A DNA stretch of 64,000 bases from Arenimonas caeni (GTDB lineage Bacteria; Pseudomonadota; Gammaproteobacteria; Xanthomonadales; Xanthomonadaceae), in assembly GCF_003024235.1 (NCBI RefSeq), contig NZ_KZ679087.1, positions 62,001 to 126,000 of the forward strand, written 5' to 3'. Both the position numbers and the translations under genes were made by a program. Below, one piece after another: positions 49,239 through 53,605 of this stretch. The notes below the pieces were generated by a model. That model was given only the letters and a program-made list of their open reading frames with translations, had not been told where the DNA came from and ran no database searches. Numbering within the stretch: position 1 is the stretch's first letter; each line of letters opens with the position of its first letter.

Positions 49239-49268
49239 CCGGAAATGTGAACCAGCTCACATTTCCGG
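49239..49268. promoter_or_regulatory. Perfect CRP/Clp-type binding site
   Basis: AAATGTGA-N6-TCACATTT (49243-49264) agrees with the E. coli CRP consensus at all 16 half-site bases, and the palindrome extends to 12-bp arms. Its centre is about 60 bp upstream of the predicted start at 49194, close to the class I activation distance. The right half-site includes the stop codon of the acylase gene, and on its mRNA the same palindrome would form a 12-bp hairpin without a clear T-tract. Confidence 0.65.
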
Positions 49269-51638
49269 CACGAGCCGCAGTTGGTGGTGGGCCTCGCCGG
49301 GCAGGAAGGGCGAGGGCTCGCCGCGCACCCAGTCGCCGTGGCCGGCGCCCCAGAACGGCGACATCGGGTGGCCGCTCTGGCCGCCGGGCATGTGCGCGTA
49401 GCCCTCGGCCTCGCGGCCGGGCGAAACCACCATGCGCTCGCTGGCGCCGAAGCCCGGGCCCTGCACCAGCGGCATGTTGCCGTCGCCGCGCAGCGGCTCG
49501 GCCGGCATGCACAGCAGCGAACCGACCGGCCCCAGCGCGCCGGCCAGCGGGTGGCAGATGGCGGCGGTGTTGCGTTCGCCCCAGGTGCGCTCGGCCAGCG
49601 GGCCGGCTTCGCCGAGCCGGGCGCGGATGTCGCGCGCGGCGTCGGCCAGCAGCGCCTCCCAGCTGCCGAACTTGCGCGGCAGCAGGTGCACGGGGCGCTG
49701 CTGCAGCAGCGGCCAGGCATAGGACTCGGCCTGGGGCAGGTCGGGCATCACGAAGTCCTCGCCGAGCGCAGCCTGGGCCGGGGCCAGCAGGCCGTTGCTG
49801 ATGCGTTCGATGACGGCCAGGCGCCAGGCGCGCACGATGCGGTAGTCCACGGCATCGACGCTGGCCCGGCCGGTCCAGGTCGCGCTGGCCTCGGCGAGCG
49901 CGCGCAGGTCGCTGCTGGGATTGCGCGCGGCTTCTTCCTGCAGCAGCGCGTGCCAGCGCCGGAGGAAGATCGCGCGGTCGTCGAGCTGCAGCGCCAGCAG
50001 GTCACCCTCGGTGAACTGCGGCTTCTCGCGCAGGAAATCGCGGATCTGGCGCGCGCGGGCGCCGTTGGCGTAGCCGGCATCGCCGACCAGGGCCAGCGCC
50101 GCGCCGTCGACCACGCGGGCGTTGGCCGTCCACAGCACGCCGTCGGCCGGGTCGACCACGCTGGGGTTCTCGGTGGGCGCCAGCCAGCCGACCCAGCGGC
50201 AGGCCTGTTCGATGCGCAGCGGCACCTGCGGCGTGCAGTCGCCGGCGCGCTCCGGCACCTGGCCGGTCAGGCGCCAGGCGATGCGGCCGTGGCGATCGCC
50301 GATTATCAGGTTTTGGGCCGGGATGCCGGCCTGGTCGGCGACGGCCAGGCCTTCGTCCAGGCTGCCGGCGCGGGCCATGTCGCCCAGGCCGAAGTTGAGC
50401 GCGCCGGGCAGCTGCGCGGTCCAGCGCAGGGCCAGGGCGCTGCCGTCGTCGAGTTCGACGGTGACCGGGCCCCAGCGCGTCTCGCGCACCTTCAGCTCCA
50501 CCGGCTCGGCGCCCTTGACCGCGATCCACTCGCTGTCCACGCGCAGCGCCGCCTCGCCCTCGGGCACGCGGTACCTGAGCCGGTCGGCGTCGGTGAACTC
50601 GACGCGGTAGAAGTCGAGCCAGTCGCCGTAGCTGTTGGTGAAGCCCCAGGCCACGTGGCCGTTGCTGCCGACGATGACCGCGGGGATGCCGGGCAGGGTG
50701 AAGCCGGAGACGTCGACCTGGCCGCCGGGGGCGCGCGCGTCCGGGTAGCGCAGGCGGGCGCGGAACCAGATGTTCGGGGCGCGCAGGCCCAGGTGCATGT
50801 CGTTGGCGACGATGGCGCGGCCGTCGGCGGTGCGGCTGCCGGCGACGGCGAAGTTGTTGCTGCCCGGTGCGGCGGGCTCGGACACGGCATAGTCGCCGTT
50901 CTCCTCCGGCACCGGCAGCCGGCGCAGGTCGACCTCGTCGGCGCCGGGCAACACGGCGTTGCCGCGCGGCTCGCCCTGCAGCGGCGCGTCCCACTCGCTG
51001 CCGTCCACGGCGACCAGGTCGTACAGCGCCGGCGGCAGCGCCTCGCGGATGCGCCACAGTGCCAGCTCGCGCGAGTTCGACTCGTCCTGCAGGTCGAAGA
51101 ACATGGCGTAGCCAGCCAGCATCGAGTCTTCGAGCGTCCAGGGCTCGGGCCGGGCGCGCAGCAGCAGGTAGGGCCAGGGGCGTGCGCCGAGCGCCAGCAG
51201 GCCGTCGTTGACGCCGTCGCGATAGGCCTCGAGCGCGGCGAGGTGGCCATCGACGGAACTGCCCAGGTGTTCGGCCAGGCGCGCGCGCAGGCGGTGCACG
51301 CGGATCTCCTTGTCGCGCTCGATGGCCACCGGCCCGAACAGCGCCGACAGCTCGCCGGCGGCCGAGCGGCGCAGCAGGTCCATCTCGAAGTAGCGCTCCT
51401 GCGCGTGCACGAAGCCCAGCGCGCGAGCCGCGTCGGCCTCGTTGGCCGCCTGAATGGTGGCGATGCCGCGCTCGTCGCGGCTGACCATCACCGGCGCCGA
51501 AAGACCCTCGAGCGCCAGTTCGCCCTCGACCGCCGGCAGGCTGGCCCGAATGGCCCACAGGCCCGCGAACAGCGCCAGCACGGCGAGGATGACGAGGGCG
51601 GCCAACAGGCGGACGGTGAAACGAACGGCCTTGCGCAT
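49257..51638 (-). CDS. Penicillin acylase family protein (Ntn-hydrolase)
   Basis: A 793-residue N-terminal-nucleophile amidohydrolase of the penicillin/AHL acylase family. An N-terminal transmembrane or signal helix (residues 8-29) directs it to the envelope. The alpha-chain region is followed by the self-processing site, where G259 precedes nucleophile S260 in APGSNNFAVAG. The beta chain has NDMHLGLRAPNIW and GSNGHVAWGFTNSYGD. Substrate may be acyl-homoserine lactones, penicillins or other amides; sequence does not decide. The ATG at 51638 has GGAG upstream. It diverges from the asnB leader. Confidence 0.9.
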   Translation of the reverse strand: MRKAVRFTVRLLAALVILAVLALFAGLWAIRASLPAVEGELALEGLSAPVMVSRDERGIATIQAANEADAARALGFVHAQERYFEMDLLRRSAAGELSALFGPVAIERDKEIRVHRLRARLAEHLGSSVDGHLAALEAYRDGVNDGLLALGARPWPYLLLRARPEPWTLEDSMLAGYAMFFDLQDESNSRELALWRIREALPPALYDLVAVDGSEWDAPLQGEPRGNAVLPGADEVDLRRLPVPEENGDYAVSEPAAPGSNNFAVAGSRTADGRAIVANDMHLGLRAPNIWFRARLRYPDARAPGGQVDVSGFTLPGIPAVIVGSNGHVAWGFTNSYGDWLDFYRVEFTDADRLRYRVPEGEAALRVDSEWIAVKGAEPVELKVRETRWGPVTVELDDGSALALRWTAQLPGALNFGLGDMARAGSLDEGLAVADQAGIPAQNLIIGDRHGRIAWRLTGQVPERAGDCTPQVPLRIEQACRWVGWLAPTENPSVVDPADGVLWTANARVVDGAALALVGDAGYANGARARQIRDFLREKPQFTEGDLLALQLDDRAIFLRRWHALLQEEAARNPSSDLRALAEASATWTGRASVDAVDYRIVRAWRLAVIERISNGLLAPAQAALGEDFVMPDLPQAESYAWPLLQQRPVHLLPRKFGSWEALLADAARDIRARLGEAGPLAERTWGERNTAAICHPLAGALGPVGSLLCMPAEPLRGDGNMPLVQGPGFGASERMVVSPGREAEGYAHMPGGQSGHPMSPFWGAGHGDWVRGEPSPFLPGEAHHQLRLVPEM

Positions 51639-51706
51639 GCAGCGGCTCCGGGTGGGTGCAAACCCCGCCAAGGATGGCCGAAGCGGCGCGCCACCGCCAC
51701 GGGGGC

Positions 51707-51736
51707 TTGCCAAGTTCTCCGGCCCGGGCCTACTAT
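51707..51736 (+). promoter_or_regulatory. asnB promoter
   Basis: TTGCCA (51707-51712) and TACTAT (51731-51736) are 18 nt apart. The predicted first transcribed base is about 51742-51743, at the ATG of the leader peptide. No ribosome-binding site lies between promoter and ATG. Confidence 0.7.
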
Positions 51737-51742
51737 CGGCCC

Positions 51743-51808
51743 ATGCGCGCGATCGTCGTGAACAACGCCAACAACAACAATCGTCCCCCACCGCGGGTCG
51801 ACGACTAG
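51743..51808 (+). CDS. Asparagine-rich leader peptide of asnB
   Basis: A 21-codon frame, MRAIVVNNANNNNRPPPRVDD then TAG shortened here to its key part: codons 7-13 read N-N-A-N-N-N-N. Six asparagine codons in seven is far above chance and stands directly upstream of an asparagine synthetase gene. The ATG lies six bases after the -10 box, so the mRNA is probably leaderless. A ribosome slowed at the Asn codons for lack of charged tRNA-Asn would leave 51793-51800 free to pair with the terminator. Too short for routine gene finding. Confidence 0.8.
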   Translation: MRAIVVNNANNNNRPPPRVDD

Positions 51809-51850
51809 GCGCGCTACAAGAAAAAACTGCCCCAGTCCCGAACGGCCCGC
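51793..51850 (+). promoter_or_regulatory. Antiterminator pairing of the asnB attenuator
   Basis: GCGGGTCG (51793-51800), in the last codons of the leader peptide, can pair with CGGCCCGC (51843-51850), the core of the 5' arm of the terminator: eight base pairs including one G-U. The upstream strand begins 12 nt after the last Asn codon. A ribosome at the stop codon (51806-51808) would cover it, while one stalled on the first Asn codons would not. This is inferred from base pairing by eye, without energy calculation. Confidence 0.6.
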
Positions 51851-51878
51851 ATCCCAAAGATGCGGGCCGTTTCCTTTT
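51841..51878 (+). terminator. Attenuator terminator upstream of asnB
   Basis: A perfect 13-bp stem, AACGGCCCGCATC/GATGCGGGCCGTT, with loop CCAAA is followed by TCCTTTT. It lies between the leader peptide stop and asnB (30 nt before its ATG), so by default it would stop transcription before the gene. Confidence 0.85.
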
Positions 51879-51907
51879 GCGCGATCGAAAACCCAGGAGA
51901 CCTGCCC

Positions 51908-53605
51908 ATGTGTTCCATCCTCGGCGTCCACGACGCCCGCCCCGATGCCGACGTCCGCCCGCTGCGGCCGCTGGCGCTGTCGCTTTCGGCCCTGCAGCGC
52001 CACCGTGGCCCGGACTGGTCCGGCGTGTTCGAAGCGCCGGCCTGCCTGGTGGTGCACGAGCGCCTGGCCATCGTGGATCCGGCCGGCGGCGCCCAGCCGC
52101 TGCGATCCGCCGACGGCCGGCTGGCGCTGGCGGTGAACGGCGAGATCTACAACCACCGCGAGCTGGCCGGCTCGCTTGCCGCACCCTGGGAGTTCACCAG
52201 CGGTTCGGACTGCGAGGTCATCAACGCGCTTTACCGGCAGGAAGGCCCGGGCGCAGTGGCGAAACTCAACGGCATCTTCGCCTTCGCGCTGTGGGACGAG
52301 GACGCGAAGCGGCTGGTGGTGGCGCGCGACCCGCTGGGCGTGTGCCCGCTGTACTGGGGCCACGACGGTGCCGGCCGGCTGTGGGTGGCGTCGGAGATGA
52401 AGGCGCTGGCGCGGCTGTGCAGCGACGTGGCGATCTTCCCGCCCGGCCACGTCTATGACAGCGCCAGCGGGGAACTGGTGCGTTACTTCGAGCCCGGCTG
52501 GCGCGATTACGCGGCCACGCAGGGCAGGCTGGCCGCCCCGGGCGAGCTGCGCGAAGCCTTCGAGCAGGCCGTGCACCGCCAGCTGATGACCGACGTGCCC
52601 TACGGCGTGCTGCTCAGCGGCGGCCTGGATTCTTCGCTGGTGGCGGCCTGCGCGGCGAAGTTCGCGCGCCAGCGCATCGAGGACGGCGACCGCAGCGAGG
52701 CCTGGTGGCCGCGCCTGCACAGCTTCGCCATCGGCCTGCCGGGTTCACCCGACCTGGCCGCCGCGCAGACCGCCGCCGCGGCACTCGGCACCGTGCACCA
52801 CGGATTCACCTACACGCTCGAGGAAGGCCTGGACGCGCTGCCGGAGGTGATCCGCCACATCGAAAGTTTCGACGTCACCACCGTGCGCGCCTCCACGCCG
52901 ATGTTCCTGCTGGCGCGGCGCATCAAGGCCATGGGCGTGAAGATGGTGCTCAGCGGCGAGGGCAGCGACGAGATCTTCGGCGGCTACCTGTACTTCCACA
53001 AGGCGCCGGACGCACGCGAGTTCCACGCCGAGTGCGTGCGCAAGCTCGATGCCCTGCACCAGTTCGACTGCCTTCGCGCCAACAAGGCCATGATGGCCTG
53101 GGGCGTGGAGGCGCGGGTGCCTTTCCTGGACCTCGAATTCCTCGCTCTCGCGATGTCGCTCGATGCCGAGGCCAAGCGCTGTGGAAACGGGCGCATCGAG
53201 AAGGCGCTGCTGCGCGAAGCCTTCGCCGGCGCCTTGCCCGACGACATCCTGTGGCGGCAGAAGGAGCAGTTCAGCGACGGAGTCGGTTACGGCTGGATCG
53301 ACGGGCTCAAGGCCTCCGCCGAGGCACGCATCAGCGACACGATGCTGGCCGAAGCGCCGCTGCGTTTCCCGGTGAACCCGCCGGCGACGAAAGAGGCGTA
53401 CTGGTACCGCGAGCTGTTCGAGCGCCACTTCCCCGGCGAGGCTTGCGCGCGCACGGTGCCGGCCGGCAGGTCGATCGCGTGTTCGTCACCGGCGGCGATC
53501 GCCTGGGACGCGGCTTTCGCCGCCGCCGCCGACCCCTCGGGGCGGGCGGTGGCCGGCGTGCATGCGGCGGCTCAGGGCGTCGCGCCGATCTCGATATGCG
53601 CTTAA
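51908..53605 (+). CDS. asnB: Asparagine synthetase B (glutamine-hydrolysing)
   Basis: Makes asparagine from aspartate, glutamine and ATP. The 565-residue product begins MCSILGVHD, giving the catalytic Cys2 of the class II glutaminase domain (about 2-190; NGEIYNHREL). The synthetase domain has the PP-loop SGGLDSS (237-243) and SGEGSDEIFGGYLYF. E. coli AsnB has 554 residues. AGGAGA precedes the ATG; the frame is open upstream through the terminator but Cys2 fixes the start. It follows dapE, as in xanthomonads, and has an Asn-rich leader peptide and terminator upstream. Confidence 0.97.
   Translation: MCSILGVHDARPDADVRPLRPLALSLSALQRHRGPDWSGVFEAPACLVVHERLAIVDPAGGAQPLRSADGRLALAVNGEIYNHRELAGSLAAPWEFTSGSDCEVINALYRQEGPGAVAKLNGIFAFALWDEDAKRLVVARDPLGVCPLYWGHDGAGRLWVASEMKALARLCSDVAIFPPGHVYDSASGELVRYFEPGWRDYAATQGRLAAPGELREAFEQAVHRQLMTDVPYGVLLSGGLDSSLVAACAAKFARQRIEDGDRSEAWWPRLHSFAIGLPGSPDLAAAQTAAAALGTVHHGFTYTLEEGLDALPEVIRHIESFDVTTVRASTPMFLLARRIKAMGVKMVLSGEGSDEIFGGYLYFHKAPDAREFHAECVRKLDALHQFDCLRANKAMMAWGVEARVPFLDLEFLALAMSLDAEAKRCGNGRIEKALLREAFAGALPDDILWRQKEQFSDGVGYGWIDGLKASAEARISDTMLAEAPLRFPVNPPATKEAYWYRELFERHFPGEACARTVPAGRSIACSSPAAIAWDAAFAAAADPSGRAVAGVHAAAQGVAPISICA

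Follow-up and report, generated by a model that had tools for sequence, protein, structure and literature searches.

We suggest that asnB in the window, the 64-kb stretch of Arenimonas caeni DNA analysed here, is controlled by a ribosome-mediated transcription attenuator that is specific for asparagine and would sense the charging of tRNA-Asn. We assign this reading a probability of roughly 0.9. At the level of sequence, comparison among relatives establishes the parts of the switch, their conservation, both of the alternative pairings, the spacing between the Asn codons and the antiterminator, selection on the Asn codons and the link to asnB.

Results

A leader with six Asn codons precedes asnB

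In the window, all parts of the candidate attenuator lie on the plus strand. A sigma-70-type promoter occupies 51707-51736, with the -35 element TTGCCA at 51707-51712, an 18-nt spacer and the -10 element TACTAT at 51731-51736; it is the sole promoter-like site in 51500-52100, where shuffled sequences have a mean of 0.0. The -10 element ends 6 nt upstream of the ATG of a 21-codon leader ORF (51743-51808) encoding MRAIVVNNANNNNRPPPRVDD and closed by a stop codon, and transcription is predicted to start at 51743, i.e. on the A of this ATG or at most about one base away from it. The predicted regulatory Asn codons are codons 7, 8 and 10-13 (51761-51781; AAC AAC GCC AAC AAC AAC AAT). Of the 302 short ORFs of 8-70 codons that the two strands of the window contain, no other has at least four Asn in eight codons. 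Its final codons contain region 2, the antiterminator strand GCGGGTCG (51793-51800), which can form eight pairs, one of them G-U, with CGGCCCGC (51843-51850). The latter lies within region 3 (51840-51853), the 5' arm of the terminator, which is common to terminator and antiterminator. Region 4, the 3' arm (51859-51872), completes a hairpin of 14 pairs with the loop CCAAA, of which the outermost pair is G-U (13 pairs without it), and the sequence 3' of the hairpin is CCTTTTGC, a T-rich tail reaching to 51878. A simple terminator scan called no site at this hairpin because the T tail is interrupted. After the Shine-Dalgarno sequence AGGAG (51895-51899) follows asnB (51908-53602), the gene for the glutamine-hydrolysing asparagine synthetase B and the predicted controlled gene (NF006949, 813.6 bits vs a cut-off of 499). 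The original prediction, made from this DNA alone, had named the promoter, the frame with six Asn codons among codons 7-13, a perfect 13-bp terminator with a T-rich tail, the pairing of region 2 with the terminator arm and asnB downstream; all are present, with the outermost G-U pair and the interrupted tail as refinements. It had also proposed folding 51743-51880, and this segment is more stable than its shuffled versions (-52.3 vs -37.8 kcal/mol, z -3.9).

The upstream neighbour (49257-51638) is a weak match to the acylase PvdQ (NF051460, 45 bits vs a cut-off of 950). It lies on the minus strand and is divergent, and the possibility that the hairpin is the terminator of this upstream gene was rejected. 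No Rfam 15 family reached its gathering score in 51500-52100 or in six relatives scanned at E 0.1. Two partial matches were set aside: Thr_leader (RF00506) scored 25 bits vs a gathering score of 55 and covered the terminator part only, and ctRNA_p42d matched the terminator hairpin only, far below its gathering score.

The leader is conserved upstream of asnB among relatives of Xanthomonas

AsnB was found in 220 of 247 genomes of the GTDB family at E 1e-150, the 247 having been drawn from a larger group, and from among the family matches listed, the upstream regions of 162 asnB loci in 49 genera were examined. To pass the scan, a locus needed an ORF whose last 26 codons include at least three Asn, followed by a hairpin at most 70 nt past the stop. 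The original prediction had proposed aligning relatives, and the Asn run, the terminator and the antiterminator strand are indeed kept upstream of asnB: 146 of the 162 upstream regions, from 39 genera, pass the scan, and inspection by eye adds L037, in which the leader is clipped by the 500-nt limit, and L156, which represents a 40th genus, giving 148 of 162 with a leader and terminator. Twelve of the 14 remaining loci (L159-L170, from the nine genera g15, g19, g23, g28, g34, g37, g41, g42 and g54) form one separate AsnB lineage with 61-65% identity and a tree support of 100, and they lack the Asn leader. In the other two, either asnB is present and no leader was found by scan or by eye (L046) or the upstream sequence is of poor quality (L005).

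A contig scan of relatives covered the best 80 of 592. The leader is present in 37 of the first 40 of these loci, in Xanthomonas, Stenotrophomonas, Lysobacter, Luteimonas, Thermomonas, Pseudoxanthomonas, Rhodanobacter, Dyella, Fulvimonas, Frateuria, Arenimonas and further relatives, and is absent in L174, L182 and L195. The other 40 come from Vibrio, Shewanella, Pseudoalteromonas, Colwellia, Aeromonas and others, and of the three that pass the scan only L216 is convincing; in L243 (Vibrio) and L252 (Shewanella) the ORF and hairpin are unlike the rest, and these passes are taken as chance. Judged by its sequence elements, the switch is thus retained in most of the sampled relatives of Xanthomonas.

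A covariance model built on 57 aligned leaders matches 226 of the 247 family genomes at E 1e-5; in genomes of the AsnB clade without an Asn leader, matches at this threshold are likely bare hairpins. All 150 matches listed (E 1.5e-19 or better) precede asnB: 130 lie 18-276 nt upstream of an already placed asnB, and for the other 20 the N-terminus of AsnB was recognized by pattern in 19 and AsnB residues by eye in one (L310). Across the class, 34 of 369 genomes match at E 1e-5, and the four strong matches (E 4.8e-20 or better) are all in the leader's own family. Matches outside the family were set aside on the reading of two loci: by eye, the best, in G720 (E 1.6e-10), has no ORF recognizable as AsnB at its locus (L283), and L286 has none either. 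The other weak matches include one in G740 of the same order as that in G720.

Several observations concern individual genomes. Within the genus, AsnB was matched at E 1e-100 in 18 of 27 genomes; the nine without a match are G001, G004, G009 and six others, some of them incomplete. L182 (Rhodococcus sp. RD6.2), L174 and L195 carry an AsnB of the Lysobacterales clade, without the leader, in records titled Actinomycetota, Myxococcota and Acidobacteriota; either gene transfer or misbinned contigs would account for this placement. In genus g14 (L028, L031, L032, L033 and L068-L073), the hairpin lacks a T run of at least four at all ten loci, and a second hairpin made from the loop and the 3' arm of the terminator scores better in at least three of them; the hairpins of L028, L032 and L073 were anchored by hand. 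Finally, one MAG has the leader and the asnB start on two contigs (L328, G056:C147; L153, G056:C505), one of which ends 129 nt past the leader, pointing to a duplicate or mixed assembly.

The terminator arm changes together with the antiterminator strand

At the 146 loci that pass the scan, the best duplex between the ORF end and the terminator 5' arm ranges from -12.2 to -25.8 kcal/mol. It is weaker than -14 kcal/mol at ten loci (six from g14, three from g26 and one from g49), which is near the -11 to -13 kcal/mol of control segments. With one locus per genus (n=39), a strand paired with its own arm gives -18.53 kcal/mol vs -16.12 kcal/mol for strands and arms mixed between genera, and none of 10,000 permutations is as good; the same holds for all 146 loci and for 117 non-redundant loci. 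Segments upstream and downstream show no such gain. At a typical locus, a median of 0.24 to 0.29 of the arms from other genera pair as well as its own.

A single substitution illustrates the coordination. At all 17 loci with CCTGC instead of CCCGC in region 3, which come from seven genera, region 2 carries A instead of G, and the G-to-A change is seen as Arg to Gln in the leader peptide. The terminator's own 3' arm stays G at 14 of these 17 loci, and the change therefore tracks the antiterminator more closely than the terminator. Since the registers of these duplexes were chosen by folding, which favours pairing, the strings were also checked without folding: CAGG accompanies all 17 CCTG arms and CGGG alone accompanies 108 CCCG arms, while 17 CCCG loci also contain CAGG somewhere in the stretch and four loci fit neither pattern.

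Pairs were also counted in an alignment of 57 of the 59 chosen leaders (L028 and L185 were left out), in which counts reflect related sequences and not independent events. The terminator is 90.1% paired vs at most 57.6% when slid, with 97 two-sided cells vs 35.0 in shuffles. The antiterminator is 77.5% paired, compared with 71.6% in shuffles and no more than 39.1% when slid, and has 28 two-sided cells vs 16.2 in shuffles; its outer pairs fail in many rows of the alignment, and two of five measures are not above the shuffles (two-sided-change pairs, 177/500; further types, 500/500). Thus, the co-variation that the original prediction had asked for is found in both helices beyond the shuffled and slid controls, with the exception of these two antiterminator measures.

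Asn codons are retained through synonymous change

The last 20 codons of the 146 leaders contain 379 AAC, 366 AAT, 5 AAA and 1 AAG codons. In these leaders, the third base is swapped freely if Asn is kept and hardly ever if Asn would be lost, a pattern indicative of selection for the amino acid. Over the last 26 codons, the counts are 450 AAC and 413 AAT, so that AAT makes up nearly half; in 24 long ORFs of the window with high GC3, AAT is 9.6% of Asn codons, and in the window's own leader it is one of six.

In an alternative reading, the sensor would be the nascent peptide instead of tRNA charging, with the leader peptide arresting the ribosome by binding free asparagine or through its own sequence. 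TnaC, a leader peptide that arrests the ribosome with tryptophan, works in this manner, and the leaders do have short conserved C-terminal motifs, NNRNNASLPRAGD and ANNRARPMRVCD. However, the residues of these motifs overlie region 2 and change together with the terminator arm, the leaders vary from 20 to 60 codons in length and from 3 to 10 in the number of Asn within the last 26 codons, and an arrest by free asparagine would turn synthesis on when asparagine is plentiful, i.e. it has the wrong sign. We therefore regard peptide arrest as highly improbable and favour sensing of tRNA-Asn charging by the translating ribosome.

The spacing matches a ribosome and the choice of fold appears kinetic

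A ribosome covers the mRNA to approximately 12 nt beyond the first base of its A-site codon. The distance from the start of the last Asn codon to the core of region 2 is 14 or 17 nt at 120 of the 146 loci, and with this assumed footprint, there are at all 146 loci at least three Asn codons on which a ribosome would leave the core free. Once the stop codon occupies the A site, the footprint would span the whole core at 107 of 146. At the remaining 39, the core starts at least 18 nt before the stop (38 of 39 in the tally), so that masking there would occur while the ribosome is still moving, or would be partial. Thus, on the assumed footprint, the spacing from the Asn codons to the antiterminator fits a ribosome in most loci.

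The window's leader was also folded in steps. With a stalled ribosome and before the 3' arm is made, the predicted fold is the antiterminator (-22.8), as it is for the partial transcript with only the 5' arm and no ribosome (-28.2); with the ribosome at the stop codon, it is the terminator (-28.1). For the full leader at equilibrium, the terminator is predicted even with a stalled ribosome (-38.3). As the terminator still wins at equilibrium with a stalled ribosome, the choice between the folds must be kinetic. A protector-type (1:2) helix is found in the whole-leader fold and is absent from the fold of the partial transcript.

That the terminator is the strongest structure at equilibrium is also what would be expected of a constitutive leader terminator that merely lowers asnB expression, with the Asn-rich ORF being incidental. 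This explanation leaves unaccounted for why Asn codons are kept through synonymous change, why region 2 stays complementary to the terminator arm, why the spacing has the length of a ribosome and why the arrangement occurs a second time in another phylum (see below). We consider it extremely improbable. Rather, conservation, the coordinated change of the helices and the footprint spacing together support the attenuation reading of the original prediction, in which a shortage of charged tRNA-Asn would stall the ribosome and allow asnB to be read.

The leader mRNA is probably leaderless

A -35/-10 promoter whose -10 element ends 4-9 nt upstream of an in-frame ATG or GTG is present in 178 of 182 leaders, vs 4.2 expected from an equal number of random ATG or GTG triplets of the same stretch; the promoter score is our own, and the start is the best of on average 1.9 in-frame candidates, which the control matches. 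The full set of 183 leaders includes repeats (11 of 37 named loci equal a locus from the genome set), and removal of 14 repeats and of one leader without a usable start leaves 168 distinct leaders, of which 164 have such a promoter, 154 of them at a distance of 6 or 7 nt. Under a stricter TANNNT rule, the numbers are 96 of 183 leaders vs 4 of 773 control ATGs. Shine-Dalgarno-like 4-mers precede 53 of 179 leader starts vs 145 of 162 asnB starts. Because of the position of the -10 element and the scarcity of Shine-Dalgarno-like 4-mers, transcription should begin on the first base of the leader ATG or directly beside it, and the leader mRNA is probably leaderless. According to passages of PMC7298713, the attenuated trpL RNA of S. 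meliloti likewise starts with the ATG of its leader ORF.

Attenuation would release a short leaderless mRNA, which might act as a small RNA, or encode a small protein, that functions in trans, with or without attenuation; the same passages of PMC7298713 describe products of S. meliloti trpL that act in trans. Here, however, the N-terminal part of the peptide is variable in sequence and length, conservation resides in the Asn codons and the helices, and a trans role would add to a role in cis and not replace it. We hold little expectation of a trans-acting product and retain attenuation in cis as the preferred reading.

A second occurrence in Rubrivirga-like Rhodothermales

In L216, from a Rubrivirga MAG (found a second time as L255), and in four relatives whose AsnB is 78-95% identical, the Asn leader is unlike that described above: it has 3-5 Asn codons, its terminator has GCGGCCCCTCC-type arms, and its region 2 is able to pair with this terminator. 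All five members of this clade pass the scan, and by eye L276, a close relative in which AsnB was split in the search, makes it six of six among the members whose sequence includes the asnB start. For 24 Rhodothermales loci in total (21 scanned; L276-L278 assessed by eye), no such leader was found in the other 18 (16 by scan; L277 and L278 by eye). In the Rubrivirga-like leaders, there is no difference between own duplexes (-20.2) and swapped ones (-19.9, n=5), and the pairing in this clade is thus conserved without support from covariation. Judged by eye, their promoters are further from the likely start codons, and leaderlessness therefore seems not to apply in this clade.

In an AsnB tree of 75 rows, made with a quick method, the five Rubrivirga-like rows form a clade (support 99) apart from the Lysobacterales clade (99); L145, L179, L229 and L247 are absent because they yielded no protein for it, and L037 and L156 were set as leader-bearing by hand. 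Leader presence requires five changes on this tree, a count that cannot tell gain from loss. We read the five changes as two gains plus losses on the branches of L174, L182 and L195. In this reading, an unrelated group of another phylum seems to have evolved the switch independently.

Discussion

Combining these observations, we propose the following model for the control of asnB, in which we infer where transcription starts, that the ribosome stalls, that the choice between the folds is kinetic and that asnB responds to asparagine. RNA polymerase would start at the leader ATG, on its A or the adjacent base, and as a consequence of this start a ribosome would load on the leaderless mRNA and trail the polymerase. 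With enough Asn-tRNA, the ribosome would reach the stop codon and cover region 2, terminator 3:4 would form and transcription would end before asnB. With scarce Asn-tRNA, the ribosome would wait on the Asn codons with its front edge just short of region 2, region 2 would pair with region 3 once the latter is made, the terminator would come too late and asnB would be transcribed. The genome encodes an asparaginyl-tRNA synthetase (TIGR00457, 632.7 bits vs 342.6), and tRNA-Asn can thus be charged from free asparagine.

We lean, if only slightly, toward a broader proposal, namely that attenuation extends to asparagine, that a leaderless leader mRNA is the rule in the Xanthomonadaceae-Rhodanobacteraceae AsnB clade and that the switch arose twice, the second time in Rubrivirga-like Rhodothermales, so that in these bacteria asparagine synthesis would be controlled by tRNA-Asn charging alone, with no regulator protein.

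The original prediction held that an asparagine attenuator of this kind may be undescribed. Our literature search agrees, in that we found no published leader-peptide attenuator for asparagine or asnB; this falls short of proof, as the key surveys Vitreschak 2004 and Lopatovskaya 2010 were outside its scope. The main texts of PMC2965389, PMC4833913 and PMC1262725, in the portions consulted, do not mention asparagine, and PMC5009743 was rejected as a prior report because the asparagine codons in the relevant portion of that paper concern tRNA decoding. An asparagine attenuator is therefore likely new to the literature.

If the model is correct, asparagine joins the amino acids whose synthesis is set by stalling of the ribosome, and asnB control would be explained in a group that includes Xanthomonas, Stenotrophomonas, Lysobacter and Rhodanobacter. 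The leaders would also provide an extensive natural collection of terminator and antiterminator arms that evolve under coding constraint. The leaderless start offers a testable case of how polymerase is coupled with ribosome loading on an AUG at the extreme 5' end, and the independent occurrence in Rhodothermales would indicate the ease with which a switch of this type evolves.

Classical ribosome-mediated attenuators control the his, thr, leu, ilv, phe and trp operons. The asnB leader resembles them in its short leader ORF rich in codons for the amino acid product, in the antiterminator strand at the end of this ORF and in the terminator before the first structural gene. It differs in that asparagine is the amino acid predicted to be sensed and asnB the gene controlled, and in that the leader mRNA is probably leaderless. 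With T-box riboswitches, the predicted switch would share both the signal, uncharged tRNA, and the outcome, antitermination. However, a T-box recognizes the tRNA itself and has no need of a leader ORF, while the asnB leader has one. Asparagine T-boxes occur in Firmicutes; a T-box was rejected here, with no match at E up to 1 in 51500-52100 or in six relatives at E 0.1. The closest parallel for the predicted start is trpL/trpE(G) of S. meliloti, with an RNA that, according to passages of PMC7298713, begins at the ATG of the leader ORF, as is predicted for asnB; that system differs from the asnB leader in that it responds to Trp, belongs to an alphaproteobacterium and has a different leader.
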